Below are positions 5,781 to 29,433 of a DNA stretch of 35,382 nucleotides, in pieces. The DNA comes from a bacterium (lineage in GTDB: Bacteria; Cyanobacteriota; Vampirovibrionia; Gastranaerophilales; Gastranaerophilaceae). A program made the position numbers and the translations under genes. The first letter of the stretch is position 1. Each line of letters begins with the position of its first letter. The notes under the pieces were generated by a model. The model did not search any database. It saw only the letters and a list, made by a program, of their open reading frames with translations, and was not told the DNA's origin. The stretch lies in contig JAFWGJ010000141.1 in NCBI GenBank assembly GCA_017512405.1, positions 1 through 35,382 of the forward strand, given 5' to 3'.

Positions 5781-5809
5781 CACTAACCCCATAAAAATAA
5801 CTTAATAAT

Positions 5810-5838
5810 ATTTTAAAATAAATTTAATAATTTGGCAA
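5810..5838 (-). promoter_or_regulatory. Promoter for the TPR lipoprotein-lgt operon (shares -35 DNA with the opposite promoter)
   Basis: On the minus strand the -35 is TTGCCA (5838-5833), the spacer is 17 bases and the -10 is TAAAAT (5815-5810). Transcription would start near 5803, about 22 bases before the ATG at 5780. The -35 hexamer overlaps, on the other strand, the -35 of the promoter for the operon starting at 5884. Confidence 0.6.
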
Positions 5839-5861
5839 TAAAATTAAATTTAAGTTACAAT
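5832..5861 (+). promoter_or_regulatory. Promoter for the operon beginning with the ClpX-type zinc finger gene
   Basis: A -35 TTGGCA (5832-5837), an 18-base spacer and a -10 TACAAT (5856-5861) are present. A second -10-like TATAAT follows at 5861-5866 without a well-placed -35. The gene at 5884 has an AAAAGGA ribosome site at 5871-5877. The -35 is read on the opposite strand as TTGCCA for the divergent promoter. Confidence 0.55.
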
Positions 5862-5883
5862 ATAATTAAGAAAAGGAAAAAAT

Positions 5884-6153
5884 ATGTCAGAAGAAAAAGT
5901 TGTAAAATTAGGGAAAAGAACACATAAAGAACATAAACAAGAAGAACAGGAATTACCTCAGCAAAATGAGCCTGTTTTTTGCAGTTTTTGCGGTCGTCCG
6001 AATACGGAAGTTTTAAAAATGGTAAAAGGCCCCGGCGTAAATATTTGCTCTGAATGTACAATGATAGCGGTACAATATTTAATAATGAACGACAGAATGC
6101 CGTCAGAAGAAGCTCAAAAAGTTCTTGACGCTATCTGGAGGATAAGCAAATAA
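5884..6153 (+). CDS. Stand-alone ClpX-type C4 zinc-binding domain protein
   Basis: An 89-aa protein with a basic/acidic N-terminal tail (1-30) and a complete ClpX zinc-binding domain. Cys33-x2-Cys36 and Cys55-x2-Cys58 are separated by 18 residues, the same spacing as in E. coli ClpX (C15, C18, C37, C40), and GPGVNICSEC resembles the ClpX sequence. No AAA+ ATPase domain follows: the frame ends in TAA and the next gene starts on its last base. In ClpX this domain dimerises and binds adaptors and substrates, so a free copy could be an adaptor, competitor or regulator of ClpXP, or an unrelated zinc finger adapted to another use. It is the first gene of an operon with its own promoter and a good AAAAGGA ribosome site. 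Confidence 0.8.
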   Translation: MSEEKVVKLGKRTHKEHKQEEQELPQQNEPVFCSFCGRPNTEVLKMVKGPGVNICSECTMIAVQYLIMNDRMPSEEAQKVLDAIWRISK

Positions 6154-7790
6154 TGGAACAACTCAATAAAATACAATTAAAAGCGGAAATATTAACCGTA
6201 ATAACTAAGCTTCAAACAATATCCGACACATCAAAAGTAAACGATATAATTAAAGTTCTTGCAGCACAGGAAGATAAGAAGCTTCTGCTTGATTTATTAA
6301 TGCGTGAATTTATTAAAACAAAAGAAGATAAAGCCTTTATCATAAGTTTTTTGATGTTAAAATTGACAGACAAAGAACATCTTGAAAATGCTCTATGGAC
6401 ATCACTAAAAAGTCCGACAGTAAGTGATTACAATAAAGCATTAATACTTAATTTGTTAAAAGACATGGGAAACCGTGTAGATTACAATGAAATTGATGAA
6501 TATTTTGAATCTCCTGAAGATATTATTGATTCTGAAACGAGAGAACTTTTACATACGGCAATAATGAATCCGGAAGCTCAAATAGATTTTTTGGATTTTT
6601 TGGAAGCATTGCCTTATGAAGATAAATTAACTTTGGTTCAATCACTCGGTGATGATTATTCCGAAGATGCACTTGCAAATATTTTAATACCATTGTTTGT
6701 GCACGACCCGACATCAAGAATTGCAATTGTTGCTTTAAATATTTTGGGACAAACTAAATCACAACTGGCGCTTCATGCGTTAACGGAAGTACTGGAATAT
6801 GCTGATGAAGATATTGTTCCTGCAATTAAAAGAAATATTTCAGCACTAAAACTTTCCGGTGTAAGAGAAGATAATGCCATTGACTTTTACAAAGACGTTT
6901 TATCTGAATCTAAACCTTATGAATGCTATACAAGCTATCCCGACGGACACGGCAATCAGGCATTAATTTTTTCAAGAGAAAGAGAAGATGAAACAATACA
7001 GTTTTTAGCTGTTGTTGTTAATGATAAATGGGGAATTGTGGATTGCTTTGGATTTAATCAAATTACAAAAGATGAATTTGAAAAGATTGTTTCAAGATTC
7101 TATGGTGATGAAGACAGCGTATATATTAATCAAACTGTATTAAAGGCTCTATTAAACCAGGCTGAAAACATTGTTCACAGAAATGGAGAAATAGTTTCGT
7201 ATGAATATGTTTGTTGGCGCACTATAACATCTGATATCCCTATTGAACCAGTTCCTATGGAATTTATTATGGAAGACAAGTTCAAAAAAGAAGAACTTTC
7301 TAAAAATGATTTTGATAAAATATGCTTATCAGACGTAGCCCAAAAATGGTTCTTAGACACCGATTTTTCGGATGAATTTTCGGAATTTATTATAAACCTA
7401 AATAAGGAATACCATAAAGGTGATTATTCAATAGATTTAGACAAAATGATTGAAGATAATATTGATGAAATCATACCTAAGAAAGATACTAAAAAGTGGC
7501 AAAAACGAATATTAACTTCTGCATATTTAAAATATCTTGCAAACGAAAAGAATGAAGCTCAAAGATTATATTCACTCTACTTTGATGAAAAAGCAATGCA
7601 TCAAATGTTTATAAATATAGTAAGAAAGAGCATCTACGAATATTATGTAGGATTAAAATTCAGAATAAAGGAAGAATCACAGACATCAAGTATCTTCACA
7701 AGGAATAGGGGTGAAATAAGAAGAGAGTTTTCACTTGAAGAATTGGAAAAAATAATAGCAGAAATTGAAAACAGATGGGTTTCCGACTAA
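6153..7790 (+). CDS. Unknown protein with HEAT-like N-terminal half
   Basis: I do not recognise this 545-aa protein as a named family. The first ~240 residues are regular helix pairs resembling HEAT/ARM solenoids (for example NILIPLFVHDPTSRIAIVALNILGQTKSQLALHALTEVL is split over a typical repeat of about 35 residues). From about 245 the sequence changes to an alpha/beta region with aromatic-rich segments (DKWGIVDCFGFN, YEYVCWRTIT), and the last third is helical and charged. There is no signal peptide or membrane helix, so it is predicted cytosolic. It overlaps the preceding zinc finger gene by one base (TAATG) and sits directly before ruvX, so the three should be co-expressed. A solenoid next to a ClpX-type finger suggests a protein-binding role, but that is inference. 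Confidence 0.7.
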   Translation: MEQLNKIQLKAEILTVITKLQTISDTSKVNDIIKVLAAQEDKKLLLDLLMREFIKTKEDKAFIISFLMLKLTDKEHLENALWTSLKSPTVSDYNKALILNLLKDMGNRVDYNEIDEYFESPEDIIDSETRELLHTAIMNPEAQIDFLDFLEALPYEDKLTLVQSLGDDYSEDALANILIPLFVHDPTSRIAIVALNILGQTKSQLALHALTEVLEYADEDIVPAIKRNISALKLSGVREDNAIDFYKDVLSESKPYECYTSYPDGHGNQALIFSREREDETIQFLAVVVNDKWGIVDCFGFNQITKDEFEKIVSRFYGDEDSVYINQTVLKALLNQAENIVHRNGEIVSYEYVCWRTITSDIPIEPVPMEFIMEDKFKKEELSKNDFDKICLSDVAQKWFLDTDFSDEFSEFIINLNKEYHKGDYSIDLDKMIEDNIDEIIPKKDTKKWQKRILTSAYLKYLANEKNEAQRLYSLYFDEKAMHQMFINIVRKSIYEYYVGLKFRIKEESQTSSIFTRNRGEIRREFSLEELEKIIAEIENRWVSD

Positions 7791-7791
7791 A

Positions 7792-8196
7792 ATGGAAAAA
7801 ATAATGGCACTCGATATAGGTACAAAAAGAGTGGGAATAGCGTTAAGCGATTACTTACATGTAATTGCGAACGGCCATTCATATATAAGCAGAACACCTG
7901 AGGATAAAGCTATTGAAGCTATAAAAAAAATAGCCAAAGAAAACAATGTAAAAAAAATAGTAATAGGTGTACCATACAATATGGATGGTACACAAGGCTC
8001 TCAGGCTGATGATTGTATAGGATTTTCAAAAAATTTCACAGAATTTGAAGTTATACAAGAAGATGAAAGGTTAACATCTGACGAAGCAGAAGAAAATTTA
8101 AGAAACAGAAAAGTAGATTTTAGAAAAGATAAAGGTTTAGTCGATATCGAAAGTGCTTGTATAATATTAGAACAATACTTATCAAAAACAAATTAA
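7792..8196 (+). CDS. ruvX: YqgF/RuvX-family putative nuclease (Holliday junction resolvase-like)
   Basis: With the ATG at 7792 the protein has 134 aa, the usual family length. It opens with MALDIGTKRVGIALSD, the conserved RNase H-fold first strand carrying an acidic active-site residue. KIVIGVPYNMDGTQG and DERLTSDEAE follow, then a C-terminal DIESACIILEQYL that carries the last acidic position. Family members have been linked to processing of 16S rRNA 3' ends in E. coli and to Holliday junction resolution. An in-frame TTG at 7765 would add nine residues that do not resemble the family and overlap the previous gene; I rejected it. It lies directly before a DUF1292 gene, a neighbour pair also known from Firmicutes. 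Confidence 0.9.
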   Translation: MEKIMALDIGTKRVGIALSDYLHVIANGHSYISRTPEDKAIEAIKKIAKENNVKKIVIGVPYNMDGTQGSQADDCIGFSKNFTEFEVIQEDERLTSDEAEENLRNRKVDFRKDKGLVDIESACIILEQYLSKTN

Positions 8197-8211: not shown

Positions 8212-8475
8212 ATGTCAGAAGAAGAAAAAAGAATTATTGAAACGATAGACGAAAACGGCAATGAAGTAAAATTTGAATTGTTTGATATAATCGTCTTTGA
8301 AGAACAGGAATATGCATTATTGACAAATCCTGAGGAAGAGGATGATGAAAATATAGTAGTTATGAAACTACTAAAAGAAGGAAGTGGATATTCTCTTGAA
8401 ACAATTGAAGATGATGATGAATTTGATAGAGTTTCAGAATATATAGAATCATTAGAAGAAGAAATAGAGGAATAA
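8212..8475 (+). CDS. DUF1292 family protein (YrzB-like)
   Basis: An 87-aa, strongly acidic protein. The stretch ENGNEVKFELFDIIVFEEQEYALL and the later NIVVMKLLKEG are typical of DUF1292/YrzB. The family has no established molecular function; it is often found beside ruvX, as here. A GCAGG ribosome site precedes the ATG. The long run of Glu/Asp near the C terminus (DDDEFDRVSEYIESLEEE) is usual. It is followed two bases after its stop by the TTG start of the Clp N-domain gene, whose ribosome site GAGG lies inside this coding region. Confidence 0.85.
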   Translation: MSEEEKRIIETIDENGNEVKFELFDIIVFEEQEYALLTNPEEEDDENIVVMKLLKEGSGYSLETIEDDDEFDRVSEYIESLEEEIEE

Positions 8476-8477
8476 AC

Positions 8478-9839
8478 TTGTTAGAAAAATTTACTGAAAA
8501 AGCAATAAATGTAGTAACAGAAGCACAAAATCAGGCTAAACTTATGCAAAATGTATCAGTTCAACCCGAACACTTTTTGCTGGCTCTTGTTAAACAAGCA
8601 AGGGGAATATCATTAAACATTTTTAGAAGCTACAACATTGATTTTAAAGAATTACAAAAAGTTGTAGAAGAAAAATTAAGATTTGAAAAATCATCAAGGA
8701 TATTTACAACACCTCCATTCAGCATAGCAAGTAAAGAATTGCTAAAAAAGGCTTCCGATATAGCGGAAAAGACGTCTAATCAGAATATTCTATATGAACA
8801 TATCTTTCTTGCGATTTTAAACGATAAAAATTCTTATGTATCAAGAATATTAGAAAAATTTAGTTTTGATGTTTATAAGTCAAAAGATTTACTTTCAAGA
8901 CTTGTTCAGAGAAAAGTTAAAAAAGTTCTCCATCCGGAAAGTGATGATACAACAAAATTACCTTCCGAATTACTTGATATAGAACATTTACTTTCAGGAA
9001 GTAAAAATGTCTTTGACAAAGCTTTATCAAAATTATCGGCATCAAATTATGAAATTCTTGGCACAGAGCAAATATTATCTTCAATTTTAGAAGATAATGA
9101 AGCCGAATTAACAAAAATTTTATCTAAGAACGGTATTAACAGCGGAAATTTTGAGAAAAAACTGGCCGAAGTTTCAAATCGAAAAGATGAATTTGAAGGC
9201 AAACAAATAATTTTTACACCTAACGCTTTTATTGCAATGAATAATGCTATTGAATGTGCAAAAGAACTTGGTTCATCAGTTGTTACCCCTACGCATTTAA
9301 TATTAGGCATATTAAAAACCAAAAAGGGAATAGCATACAATATTTTAAATCAACTTGATATATCAATTCCGAATTTGGAAAAGGAAATTTTAAAGCCTAT
9401 TGAAAATCAAATGCCGGAAACAGTTACTATAATGAAACTTGCAAAAGAAGAAGCTCGTCGTATTGGCAGAAATATAGTAGGAACGGAAATGTTCTTGCTG
9501 GGAATAATTTCAGAAGGCAACGGCATAGGCAGTCGCGTATTAAAAGAACTTGAAGTAAACATAAAAGATGCAAGAAATGCTGTTGAAGAAATCATAGGCT
9601 ACGGTGATGAATATTTTGATACAGAAATAACATTTACAGACAGAGCAAAAAAAGTTTTGGAAGAAGCCTGGAAACTTGCAAAAACAAGGAACGAATTAAA
9701 AATAGAATCCTCGCACTTATTATATGCAATAACTAATTATCCTGATTGCGTAGCAATGAAGGTTTTAGAACAGCTTGGAGCAGATGTTATTGAAATAAAA
9801 CAGGGTATTATATTAGAAAAGCAAAGAAGTGAAAAATAA
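8478..9839 (+). CDS. Tandem Clp N-domain protein without ATPase (three ClpC-type N domains)
   Basis: The 453-aa protein consists almost entirely of six repeats of the ~65-70 residue half-unit of the Clp N domain (about 3-68, 81-148, 177-233, 245-308, 312-374, 384-447), i.e. three full Clp_N domains. The opening LEKFTEKAINVVTEAQ and the segments ARRIGRNIVGTEMFLLGI and FTDRAKKVLEEAW closely resemble ClpC N termini, which bind substrates and adaptors. No Walker motifs or AAA+ module are present. The start is TTG at 8478, supported by GAGG at 8467-8470; no ATG gives a complete first repeat. The 3' end overlaps tilS by 11 bases. Function is unknown: adaptor, chaperone-like binder or decoy for ClpC substrates are all possible. 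It shares the operon with a free ClpX zinc finger. Confidence 0.85.
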   Translation: MLEKFTEKAINVVTEAQNQAKLMQNVSVQPEHFLLALVKQARGISLNIFRSYNIDFKELQKVVEEKLRFEKSSRIFTTPPFSIASKELLKKASDIAEKTSNQNILYEHIFLAILNDKNSYVSRILEKFSFDVYKSKDLLSRLVQRKVKKVLHPESDDTTKLPSELLDIEHLLSGSKNVFDKALSKLSASNYEILGTEQILSSILEDNEAELTKILSKNGINSGNFEKKLAEVSNRKDEFEGKQIIFTPNAFIAMNNAIECAKELGSSVVTPTHLILGILKTKKGIAYNILNQLDISIPNLEKEILKPIENQMPETVTIMKLAKEEARRIGRNIVGTEMFLLGIISEGNGIGSRVLKELEVNIKDARNAVEEIIGYGDEYFDTEITFTDRAKKVLEEAWKLAKTRNELKIESSHLLYAITNYPDCVAMKVLEQLGADVIEIKQGIILEKQRSEK

Positions 9840-25290: not shown

Positions 25291-25323
25291 TATTACACTA
25301 AGGGAAATGTGTGGAGGAATAAT

Positions 25324-28300
25324 ATGCACAATATATCATTTTTAGGCAAACGTGAAGATAAAAACACTGTTGAACAGTTGAAAAAACAGGGAGATGCTCT
25401 AACCCTTAATAATCAACGTAATATAACAACAGCTATTGATAAATTATCAGAAGACTCATCAGAAGAAAATATTAAATTTTTGATGAATGTAGCACAAGGT
25501 TTAAGATACGGAACAAGTTTTGAACTTGACGGCAAAAAGACTAATAATGACTGGAAAGGTAAACTACAAAGTGCAACAGAAAAAGCTTTGGCGAAAACAG
25601 ATTCTCCAAACAAAGCTAAATTACAAGAACAATTTAAAGCAACTTTTATAGACAAAAAAGAAATGTCAGAAGATGAAAAGTCAATTATGGCATTACGCAG
25701 CAATATCCTTAAAACAAAAGGACTTCCACAAGCTATTAATGATTCAAAAATTGATGTCGTAAAAAATATTGCTAAAAACCTTGATTATTTTGTAATCTCA
25801 TCAGAAATTACAACAAAGGAAAAGAAATCTTGTCTTGAAAAATTAAATAAATTTATGAGCGACGATTATAAAATTAATCCGCAATTAAAAAACAAGAAAC
25901 CACAGGTTTTAGGTGAATTATTAAACGATTTGGTTGTAAAAACAGCAGAATCTGATAAACCAACAATCAAAACAACGGACCAACGCCATCACGGTATGTG
26001 TGCTGCAATTTCTACATCAAGAAAGGTTATGGCTTATGAATACAAAGATAAGTACGTAACAATGATTATGGAAGAATTGAACAACAAACCTGAAATGAAA
26101 GTTTATGACCCGACAAAATTAGGAACAAACGCAAAAATTTCCGTTCCTAAAACAGAAGTTGATTTTGATTACGCAGATGACAAGGGTTATAGAATTCTTG
26201 ATGCATCAGCATTGCAATGGATGAATATCGCAGGTAATTCAGGCAGAGGTGATATACAATCAACCAAATTCTCGGCTTTTGACAGACAATTCTTTGATAC
26301 ATTCCACGATGCACACTACATGAGAGAATTAGATGATCCTAAATTGGTTCCACACCAATATCATCTAAGAGCATTGGAGAAAGCTGATGAATTTTTGACA
26401 TCCGCTAAAAAAGGCATCGAAAAACGAGAAAAAGAAGCTGTTGAACAGAAACAAAACGAAAAATTCAATGCTCAAACAGTTGTAAAAGCTAATGCAGCAT
26501 TAAATAAAGAATTAAGTGCATTAATGCCAGAAAAAAATCAAGAAGAAATGAACAAAGTCGTAAATCGTTTCTTAAAAATGGGTGAAGTCAAAGGTACACA
26601 ATCTGATGATTTACACTTCTTTGATTACGAAGAAGAAGTGATGAAAAAACAAAAAATGGCTAACTTCATAAAAAAAGAAAATCCTAACGTAAAACAAGAA
26701 GATATAGATGCCAAAATGAATGATATCTATAACATGTATGAACTTTCAACAGAAACAACAGAATACATGAATAAAGAAATTATTCCAAAATCACCTGCAA
26801 ATAAAATGAAAAAACTTTATAAACCGCTTTTTGAAGCTGCCGGTGCTTATAGAACAGCTCAGGATAAAAAACTTGATATCCCTGAAAATCTTGCACAAGA
26901 AGTTAAAAAATACGATTTAAAACCTGATGCAACAAAAGCTGACGTTATGAAAAAGTATGAAAAGGAAGGCAAAGTTGTACCTGAAAACATATTAAGAAGC
27001 ATGCAAGATAAATACAACAAAATTGCAAAATATGCAGCAGTTGTAGAAAAAGCTGAGGTTAAAGGCGAAAAACTTGATATGCCAAATCTTTATGAAATGA
27101 CTGATGCAGAAAAAGAAGCATTAGATAAAGTTGCTAAAAATCTTAATAAAATGCAAGCTGAAATATCACGCGAAACCAAGGCAAAACAAAAAGAACTTGA
27201 ACAACCTTTAAATGCACTTGCAAAAGAAATTGGTAAAGAACAAGGTAACTTTTGGGTACATAAAGAAGGTTCTTCTGGGCTTTGTACACCACAAGAAATA
27301 AGAATTTTGGAACAAATGACCGGCAAGCCTTATTATGCAGAAGAGAGCGTTGAGGCTGCTGCAGAAAGAATAAAAAAAGGACAACATTCAGGTATAAGCG
27401 GTACATCTGTATACCACAACGACCACGGTGGACACGCTCAATACATAGCAGATGTTGCACCATTATTAGTAAAAGATCCTAAAACAGGTAAAGTTGAGAT
27501 TAAAGATGCAATTATGCACGATAATACTTGGGGTGAAGCTGAACACAAGAAGACTTGGCTTGATTCAAGAGGACTTTTAAGAACTGATTATCAATGTGGT
27601 CGTGGTGGTAAAGATGGCTACATTACAAATTCTGCTTGGCAAAACGGAACACTTGTTGAAGATTACAAATATGAACCGGGTTCTATCAATGGTAACAAGT
27701 TCAAAATGTTCTATGATGCAATATTGCCAACAGTAGAAAATGATACAACAAATACATCTGTAAGCTTAGTCCAAAATGCTTTTATTGGTCCCGATTTAAA
27801 TAAAGCCAAAGTTGCACAAGTATTACAGGCTGTAAAAAAAGTACCTGTTGAATTTTTGGATAAAGTAATGGAACGTGCTGAAAATGCAGGCGAAACCAAA
27901 AAATCAATAGAGCTTCAGGTAATGACAGATCTTGATAATATTCATTCAGAAGCAGATTTAAGCAAATCACACAAGAGAACTCAAAATTATATGAATAGTG
28001 TTGCAGAACAATTATCATTTACAAGAGATAATGCTCTTAATGCTATTTCAGAAGCTGCTCAACTTGACGTTACAGCAAAAGATATTGATAAAATTGAAGA
28101 CAAAAGTTTTCAGGTAATGAAACATTTTATTGATGAAAAATTTGATCCGAAAGATAATAAAGCATTTATTACTAAGTTCAATGAAATAAAAGCAATGGAC
28201 GAAAATGGATTAAAATCTTTAATTGAGAGTTCAACAGATGAACAGTTAGGTGTAAAAACAGTAACACCATATGATGCTGCAAGACAAATTAAAGGGCTTG

Positions 28301-29433
28301 AACCTGCTGCAACAAATGCTTTAAATTCATTGATGTTTATGGATTCAATACAAGATAACATTAAATTAACAGAAAAAGGTGATTCTTTTGAGGAAGCATA
28401 TTTCATCTTACAACGTGATTGGAATAATTTAAACGCTTCAAAAGAAATCAGACAACTAAAAAATAAAATGTATGCCCAACACGGAGTAAGAGCGGCATAT
28501 CCTGAATGTTCATTAACAACAAAAGAAGAAACTGCAGAACTTGCTAAAGACTTCTCTGAAACATTAAAAGATGGTATTAAAGTTGTAAATGACCTTAAAC
28601 AAATGAAAGACGGCAAGATAGATAAGCAAGGTCTTACCGATAAGGAAATTGATATAGCTATGAAAAATCAATTAGCCGATATTGCAGAAGGTAAAAAGGC
28701 TTTCATTGAAGCAAATATTGAACCTCAACACAGACATGCGGTAGCAGGGGCTTTAAATAATTATTTATCAGATGCAATAAAGGGCAAAAATACTGATGAA
28801 AGCTATGCTAAGTTTGAAAAGTCATTTGACAGATATCATATATTAAACAATCCGCAGGAATTGTTAAAAGAATTCGTAAGATTAGCAAAAAATAAGAATC
28901 CAGACAATAAGCAACTGCTAAAAACTTATGAAGGCTATATGATTAAGGGCTGTCAGGAACTTGCAAAATTTGACGCAGCTGTAACAATGATGTCAGAAGC
29001 AAGTAACGGACACATGCATGAAATAGCAAAAGACTTTGCAGATATCACAACACCAAAAGAATGGGATGAACTAGGTGAAGAACATAACTTAGGTACTGAC
29101 GAAGGTTTTTACGCATTCCTTGAAAAATCACAAGAAACCTGTGGTGTGGATAATACATTGACAATGTTAAATCACATTGGTCAAAATGACAGGGCTATGA
29201 GATTGGAAATGGAAAATATCAACGTACTTAACGAACTAAAAACGTTACTGTCATCTAAAACAATACCACAAATAATGGATTATGCAAAAACAAAAGCTAA
29301 TTTTGTAAATGGTTTGAACCTTTCCAAATCTCCAAAAGAAGCTAAAATGCGTGAAGAATATATGGCTAAAATGAATGAATTTATTGAATATATCAATAAA
29401 ACATCACCAACGCTTGTAACTCAGGCAAAGTAA
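25324..29433 (+). CDS. Large unknown protein with papain-like Cys-His-Asn signature
   Basis: From the ATG at 25324 (GGAGG six bases upstream) this protein has 1369 aa. I do not recognise the whole as a family. Near residue 220 it reads DQRHHGMCAAIS, like the Gln...Gly-x-Cys box of papain-fold peptidases (Gln220, Cys226). Much later, GGHAQYIADV (His704) and HDNTWGEA (Asn734, Trp736) resemble the His and Asn-x-Trp boxes. If real, about 480 residues of mostly helical sequence separate Cys from His, against about 134 in papain. The rest is Lys/Glu/Ala-rich and helical, with no signal peptide, membrane helix or clear repeat. The start at GTG 25309, five codons earlier, is rejected. The gene stands alone between its own promoter and a strong terminator. 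It could be a peptidase, a transglutaminase-like enzyme, a secreted effector or a structural protein; enzymatic activity is inference. Confidence 0.75.
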   Translation: MHNISFLGKREDKNTVEQLKKQGDALTLNNQRNITTAIDKLSEDSSEENIKFLMNVAQGLRYGTSFELDGKKTNNDWKGKLQSATEKALAKTDSPNKAKLQEQFKATFIDKKEMSEDEKSIMALRSNILKTKGLPQAINDSKIDVVKNIAKNLDYFVISSEITTKEKKSCLEKLNKFMSDDYKINPQLKNKKPQVLGELLNDLVVKTAESDKPTIKTTDQRHHGMCAAISTSRKVMAYEYKDKYVTMIMEELNNKPEMKVYDPTKLGTNAKISVPKTEVDFDYADDKGYRILDASALQWMNIAGNSGRGDIQSTKFSAFDRQFFDTFHDAHYMRELDDPKLVPHQYHLRALEKADEFLTSAKKGIEKREKEAVEQKQNEKFNAQTVVKANAALNKELSALMPEKNQEEMNKVVNRFLKMGEVKGTQSDDLHFFDYEEEVMKKQKMANFIKKENPNVKQEDIDAKMNDIYNMYELSTETTEYMNKEIIPKSPANKMKKLYKPLFEAAGAYRTAQDKKLDIPENLAQEVKKYDLKPDATKADVMKKYEKEGKVVPENILRSMQDKYNKIAKYAAVVEKAEVKGEKLDMPNLYEMTDAEKEALDKVAKNLNKMQAEISRETKAKQKELEQPLNALAKEIGKEQGNFWVHKEGSSGLCTPQEIRILEQMTGKPYYAEESVEAAAERIKKGQHSGISGTSVYHNDHGGHAQYIADVAPLLVKDPKTGKVEIKDAIMHDNTWGEAEHKKTWLDSRGLLRTDYQCGRGGKDGYITNSAWQNGTLVEDYKYEPGSINGNKFKMFYDAILPTVENDTTNTSVSLVQNAFIGPDLNKAKVAQVLQAVKKVPVEFLDKVMERAENAGETKKSIELQVMTDLDNIHSEADLSKSHKRTQNYMNSVAEQLSFTRDNALNAISEAAQLDVTAKDIDKIEDKSFQVMKHFIDEKFDPKDNKAFITKFNEIKAMDENGLKSLIESSTDEQLGVKTVTPYDAARQIKGLEPAATNALNSLMFMDSIQDNIKLTEKGDSFEEAYFILQRDWNNLNASKEIRQLKNKMYAQHGVRAAYPECSLTTKEETAELAKDFSETLKDGIKVVNDLKQMKDGKIDKQGLTDKEIDIAMKNQLADIAEGKKAFIEANIEPQHRHAVAGALNNYLSDAIKGKNTDESYAKFEKSFDRYHILNNPQELLKEFVRLAKNKNPDNKQLLKTYEGYMIKGCQELAKFDAAVTMMSEASNGHMHEIAKDFADITTPKEWDELGEEHNLGTDEGFYAFLEKSQETCGVDNTLTMLNHIGQNDRAMRLEMENINVLNELKTLLSSKTIPQIMDYAKTKANFVNGLNLSKSPKEAKMREEYMAKMNEFIEYINKTSPTLVTQAK

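Follow-up and report, generated by a model that had tools for sequence, protein, structure and literature searches.

Nearly all sampled genomes of the Gastranaerophilales encode a free zinc-binding domain (ZBD) of the kind found at the start of the protein unfoldase ClpX. We met the gene in a contig of 35,382 nucleotides (JAFWGJ010000141.1, here called the window) from a genome assembly of 1.93 Mb. Its 89-residue product is a member of the zf-C4_ClpX family (PF06689) with the treble-clef fold of the ClpX ZBD, but it is not a ClpX. The best explanation we can offer, and one we hold tentatively, is that a relative of the ClpX ZBD arose before the radiation of the order, became specialised, and now serves Clp proteolysis in trans, as a docking module or a decoy, held by the HEAT-repeat protein encoded next to it. 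In that role the free ZBD probably steers protein degradation from outside the protease.

The gene, its upstream region and its operon partners are arranged in the window as follows.

5793 to 5883: AT-rich divergent intergenic region
5832 to 5861: promoter-like sequence TTGGCA-18-TACAAT, a match to the consensus only
before the ATG of the ZBD gene: GGAAAA-type ribosome site
5884 to 6153, plus strand: stand-alone ClpX-type zinc-binding protein, 89 amino acids
5977 to 6078, plus strand: zf-C4_ClpX domain, residues 32-65, with Cys 33, 36, 55 and 58
6153 to 7790, plus strand: HEAT-repeat-like all-helical scaffold, 545 amino acids, with a central beta domain at 253-304
7792 to 8196, plus strand: ruvX (YqgF-type), core operon member
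8212 to 8475, plus strand: DUF1292 protein, core operon member
8478 to 9839, plus strand: Clp_N domain array, 453 amino acids, detached ClpC N-domains lacking an AAA+ domain

The ZBD protein itself has four parts.

K5-V-V-K-L9: conserved N-terminal motif
after the motif to about residue 30: disordered linker, variable and charged
residues 32-66: C4 treble-clef ZBD
residues 74-87: C-terminal helix with an invariant W85

The Pfam model zf-C4_ClpX matches the protein at 50.4-51 bits (cut-off 27, E 2.1e-13). The initial annotation had noticed that the four cysteines follow the ClpX spacing; the pattern, C-x2-C-x18-C-x2-C, is indeed identical in the ClpX of the same genome and in that of Escherichia coli. 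These cysteines are the predicted zinc ligands, and the protein presumably binds zinc. When the PDB was searched with the family profile, ClpX alone was found with confidence (1ovx, E 2e-11; 2ds5, E 1.8e-10). The AlphaFold2 model, in which residues 1-24 are disordered and helices span 56-68 and 74-87, likewise has ClpX ZBD structures as its best fold match, superposing on 2ds8_B at 0.7 Å over 37 columns with a probability of 1.00. The core is about 35-40% identical to the ClpX ZBD.

The likeness goes no further than this domain. The chain stops at residue 89, and the open reading frame bears out the early observation that the AAA+ module, with its Walker A and B motifs, is missing. The NCBIfam clpX models reach 26-31 bits against cut-offs of 359-371, and whole-protein ClpX models align to the protein through their own first 47-50 positions only; it is not a ClpX unfoldase. 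Searches with domain models found no SspB or RssB substrate-binding domain in the protein and no match to a DNA-binding family. The genome has two places that match zf-C4_ClpX. One is the gene described here and the other is an intact clpX of 443 amino acids directly behind clpP on contig C104, the full-length copy that the initial annotation had asked to see. ClpXP is intact in this cell.

Conservation covers much more than the cysteines, which account for just four of the 26 invariant columns in an alignment of 21 diverse members. On this count the protein is under strong purifying selection. All four cysteines are kept in every member examined. Loss of a cysteine in some relatives was considered and rejected: the outliers differ merely at the glycine after the second cysteine. 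Across 86 distinct proteins the order of parts is the same: a disordered tail with the motif K-[VI]-[VIL]-x-[LIF] (86 of 86, usually preceded by Asp or Glu), a variable charged linker of 13-29 residues, the ZBD, and the C-terminal helix with its invariant tryptophan. A version of the motif reading K-hydrophobic-hydrophobic-K/R occurs in 58 of them. In deep families the motif is KVVS, and its general form is K-V-V-[KS]-L.

A survey of relatives found the stand-alone gene in 262 of 286 genomes and in all 50 sampled genera of the order; among close relatives it is present in 38 of 39. Such a spread puts a chance reading frame out of the question. Nineteen of the 20 genomes listed without it belong to a single genus, g36. 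Part of this genus has lost the free ZBD gene and kept ClpX and the HEAT gene (loci L175, L176, L177, L179 and L180). One pair of g36 loci reads aroE-ZBD-HEAT on one side and aroE-HEAT on the other, aroE being read from the flanking frame. Another genome of the genus, G351, carries a tandem duplication of 187 nucleotides at the start of clpX (L244:2291-2664, copies 95% identical), which leaves a stand-alone ClpX ZBD of 57 amino acids just before clpX. The duplication apparently gave rise, recently and for the second time, to a free ZBD, within a genus prone to losing the older gene.

Outside the order, in the other families sampled across the phylum, the hits of this profile are essentially single and ClpX-like and lie in full-length frames; where second copies were checked (family f31 and genome G259), they proved to be ClpX paralogues of full length. 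In family f8, which belongs to the class of the order, there are many other small, often tandem ClpX-type zinc fingers, some of them fused to other domains (L203, L205, L206, L207, L209, L211 and L240-L243). A mobile or phage origin of the ZBD gene was rejected: phage records, plasmids and viral contigs hold no close relative, and their matches cover the ZBD core only, many of them being annotated clpX genes.

The ZBD gene stands first in its operon, as had been read from the window at the outset. The gene on its 5' side (Lgt / TPR lipoprotein) is divergent, on the minus strand, and the ZBD stop overlaps the HEAT start by 1 nt (TAATG, 6151-6155). Downstream come HEAT, ruvX, DUF1292, the Clp_N array, tilS and hpt. 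At testable loci the ZBD gene is followed by the HEAT gene (98 of 98), ruvX (98 of 98) and DUF1292 (97 of 97), and the Clp_N array is present in about four fifths of them (77 of 93); some of the loci in these counts are the same contig fetched twice. The ZBD and HEAT genes usually overlap or lie a few nucleotides apart. Counted from the other side, 89 of 94 distinct HEAT loci have a ZBD gene directly upstream, 87 as counted by the scan plus two it overlooked because the predicted HEAT start lies further upstream; the five loci without one are all from g36. Housekeeping genes are among the neighbours (ruvX, tilS and hpt), so linkage alone is no proof of a shared pathway. Elsewhere in the window, a frame of 1374 amino acids with a GTG start (25309-29433) has no Pfam match at 1e-8; it lies upstream of an ATP synthase gene cluster on the opposite strand.

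What are the two unusual partners in this operon? The HEAT protein was modelled with a mean pLDDT of 88.8, and a Foldseek search of the PDB with the model gave weak, generic matches to helical repeats, none below an E of 0.001; a sequence search of the PDB found nothing useful. Apart from two distant relatives in other members of the sampled phylum, the protein is confined to the order, and its gene adjoins ruvX-DUF1292 in all order loci examined. The idea that ZBD and HEAT form an obligate pair was rejected, as part of g36 and outgroups have the HEAT gene and not the ZBD gene. In a mirror-tree comparison, the distance matrices correlate at 0.29 for ZBD and HEAT and at 0.26 for ZBD and the Clp_N array, with bootstrap intervals that include zero. 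The Clp_N domains of the array stand in tandem, and its C-terminal module (residues 318-445) shares 46% identity with the genome's own ClpC N-domain. Arrays are present in the order members tested, G008 having a short Clp_N frame only, and none was found in the three other families of the class that were tested (f9, f12 and f14). Clp_N arrays without an AAA+ domain seem to be characteristic of the order.

The free ZBD was also compared with the ClpX of the same order, whose ZBD is nearly invariant. It consistently departs from this ClpX at about a dozen positions, each fixed or nearly so for a different residue. The free-form residues include M60 and V63, together with R38, P39, N40, M46, N53, S56, Q64, Y65 and I67, which replace K, S/T, Q, L, Y, D, E, I and D/E of ClpX, respectively. 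Polar ClpX residues in the last helix of the ZBD become hydrophobic in the free form, which also has an extra C-terminal helix beyond the ClpX ZBD. In the adaptor pocket, Phe16 of ClpX is retained as F35 and Ile46 is replaced by an invariant tyrosine, Y65. In ClpX these two residues are needed for the effect of trigger factor, and they overlap the lambda-O site (PMC7804408). The exchange of Ile46 for tyrosine, taken with the other type-specific positions, means that binding specificity has probably changed. The pattern looks like the result of selection for an altered binding surface rather than of drift.

How might such a domain work? Adaptors and some substrates dock on the ClpX ZBD (PMC7804408, PMC7226468, PMC9035409), a domain that can fold and dimerise by itself (PMC9035409). 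When supplied in trans, the isolated E. coli ZBD inhibits ClpXP in its degradation of sigma-S, which depends on RssB (PMC7226468). Judging from its anatomy, the free ZBD would bind adaptors or substrates of the kind recognised by the ClpX ZBD, and its altered last helix and added C-terminal helix would anchor it to the HEAT-repeat protein with which it is co-translated. For ClpC, the same role would fall to the detached array of ClpC N-domains. This, too, has a counterpart in mycobacteria: ClpC2 there is partly homologous to the N-domain of ClpC1 and sequesters a ligand of that unfoldase (PMC10030653). As an alternative to adaptor or substrate binding, the free ZBD might dock on ClpX by its N-terminal tail. 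The XB peptide of SspB, RGGRPALRVVK, docks on the ClpX ZBD (PMC3983244), and the K-V-V-[KS]-L tail might do likewise; the motif is short and has no counterpart to the leucine of LRVVK, and we take the resemblance as a lead only.

Several observations speak for the docking or decoy reading. Homology and fold lead to the ClpX ZBD and to nothing else; the predicted zinc ligands and the equivalent of Phe16 are kept; purifying selection is strong and the gene widespread; the ZBD-HEAT-RuvX-DUF1292 operon is fixed; and a second detached Clp recognition module, the ClpC N-domains, is encoded in the same operon. The free E. coli ZBD and the ClpC2 decoy provide experimental precedents, and the N-terminal motif resembles the XB peptide. 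The reading is weakened by the tyrosine in place of Ile46 and the other type-specific positions, by the part of g36 that retains ClpX and the HEAT gene with no ZBD gene, by the shortness of the N-terminal motif, by the mirror-tree intervals and by the housekeeping nature of neighbouring genes. A link of the ZBD protein to Clp proteolysis is inferred from its sequence and its setting. A more elaborate version strikes us as unlikely: the operon would be dedicated to recognition in trans, and ClpX ZBD, ClpC N-domain array and HEAT scaffold would together make up an adaptor platform outside the proteases, one that selects or withholds substrates of ClpXP and ClpCP, the ZBD being docked on ClpX by its XB-like tail.

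The main rival is a real possibility, if a somewhat lesser one. The finger may have been exapted as a structural or docking subunit of a HEAT complex, perhaps with RuvX and DUF1292, and touch neither ClpX nor an adaptor. The strict adjacency of ZBD and HEAT would be expected of such a subunit, and so would surface positions fixed differently from ClpX and a new C-terminal helix. ClpX-type fingers have also entered other settings: family f8 places small or tandem ones in other architectures, and stand-alone ones are annotated on plasmids of Streptomyces and Priestia. Exaptation leaves the second Clp recognition module in the operon to be accounted for, and it must contend with HEAT genes that occur without a ZBD gene in part of g36 and in two distant members of the phylum (one of them with no adjacent ZBD gene). 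As HEAT persists without it, the ZBD is not needed by HEAT as a structural subunit.

A role in binding nucleic acid, either as regulator of the operon or in a DNA or RNA function linked to RuvX, is improbable. The N-terminal linker is rich in Lys and His, ruvX lies in the operon, and a precedent for autorepression exists in the stand-alone Clp recognition protein ClpC2 of mycobacteria (PMC10030653). Against this, the linker holds at least as much Glu as Lys (19% against 17%), no DNA-binding family was matched, and the relatives of the ClpX ZBD bind peptides.

Slightly less probable still is a heterodimer of the protein and the ClpX ZBD through which the ClpX hexamer would be altered or poisoned. 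The initial annotation had proposed a regulator of ClpXP working either by heterodimerisation or by binding adaptors, and these two parts fare differently. The second is consistent with the free-ZBD precedent in E. coli. The first can appeal to the self-folding, dimerising nature of the ClpX ZBD and to the identity of the cores, but simple heterodimerisation is argued against by the type-specific residues, including the tyrosine for Ile46, when the order's ClpX hardly varies; the hydrophobic replacements on the last helix, together with the extra helix, suggest a different partner surface. Finally, the missing AAA+ domain could make the gene the relic of a second clpX, an idea refuted by conservation and of vanishing probability, given a frame that is intact order-wide with added conserved ends, an intact clpX elsewhere in the genome and no ATPase remnant found beside the ZBD gene.

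Clp protease adaptors and anti-adaptors are known in a few model bacteria; we know of none in the Gastranaerophilales, which are mostly uncultured gut bacteria. Stand-alone ClpX-type fingers already have a name in the databases, and our search of the literature found nothing that describes an order-wide, operon-bound free ZBD beside a ClpC N-domain array; this form appears to be undescribed. Should the docking or decoy reading be correct, it would show that recognition modules of Clp can be detached and put to work in trans; a free ZBD nearly universal in an order, with a detached ClpC domain beside it, offers a compact and testable system.

The nearest known structure is the ClpX ZBD itself (1ovx, 2ds5-2ds8), with which the free ZBD shares the C4 treble clef, the cysteine spacing and the core C-S-F-C and V..K..x-G-P-x-V-x-I-C-x-E-C. 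The free form differs in having no AAA+ domain and in adding the KVV[KS]L tail, the linker and the C-terminal helix with W85. The database class 'ClpX C4-type zinc finger protein', known from the Streptomyces and Priestia plasmids, consists of zf-C4_ClpX-like stretches not annotated as clpX; these match residues 33-62 at most and fall outside the free-ZBD family.

In Firmicutes, IreB/ReoM (PF06135) controls the degradation of MurA by ClpCP, and its gene adjoins ruvX and DUF1292. Like the ZBD protein, it is small, linked to Clp and encoded with these two genes; it works with ClpC and has no sequence relation to the ZBD protein, and PF06135 has no match in that protein or in the whole genome. 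The flexible linker and short basic-hydrophobic motif of the ZBD protein may be compared with adaptors of the SspB and RssB type, the motif being a putative docking tail that resembles the XB peptide; the ZBD protein lacks their domains and carries its motif at the N-terminus. Actinobacterial ClpC2 is likewise a detached Clp recognition domain alongside an intact unfoldase, and there the decoy function has been demonstrated (PMC10030653). ClpC2 is a ClpC N-domain rather than a ClpX ZBD, and its closer parallel is the Clp_N array of this operon (8478-9839).
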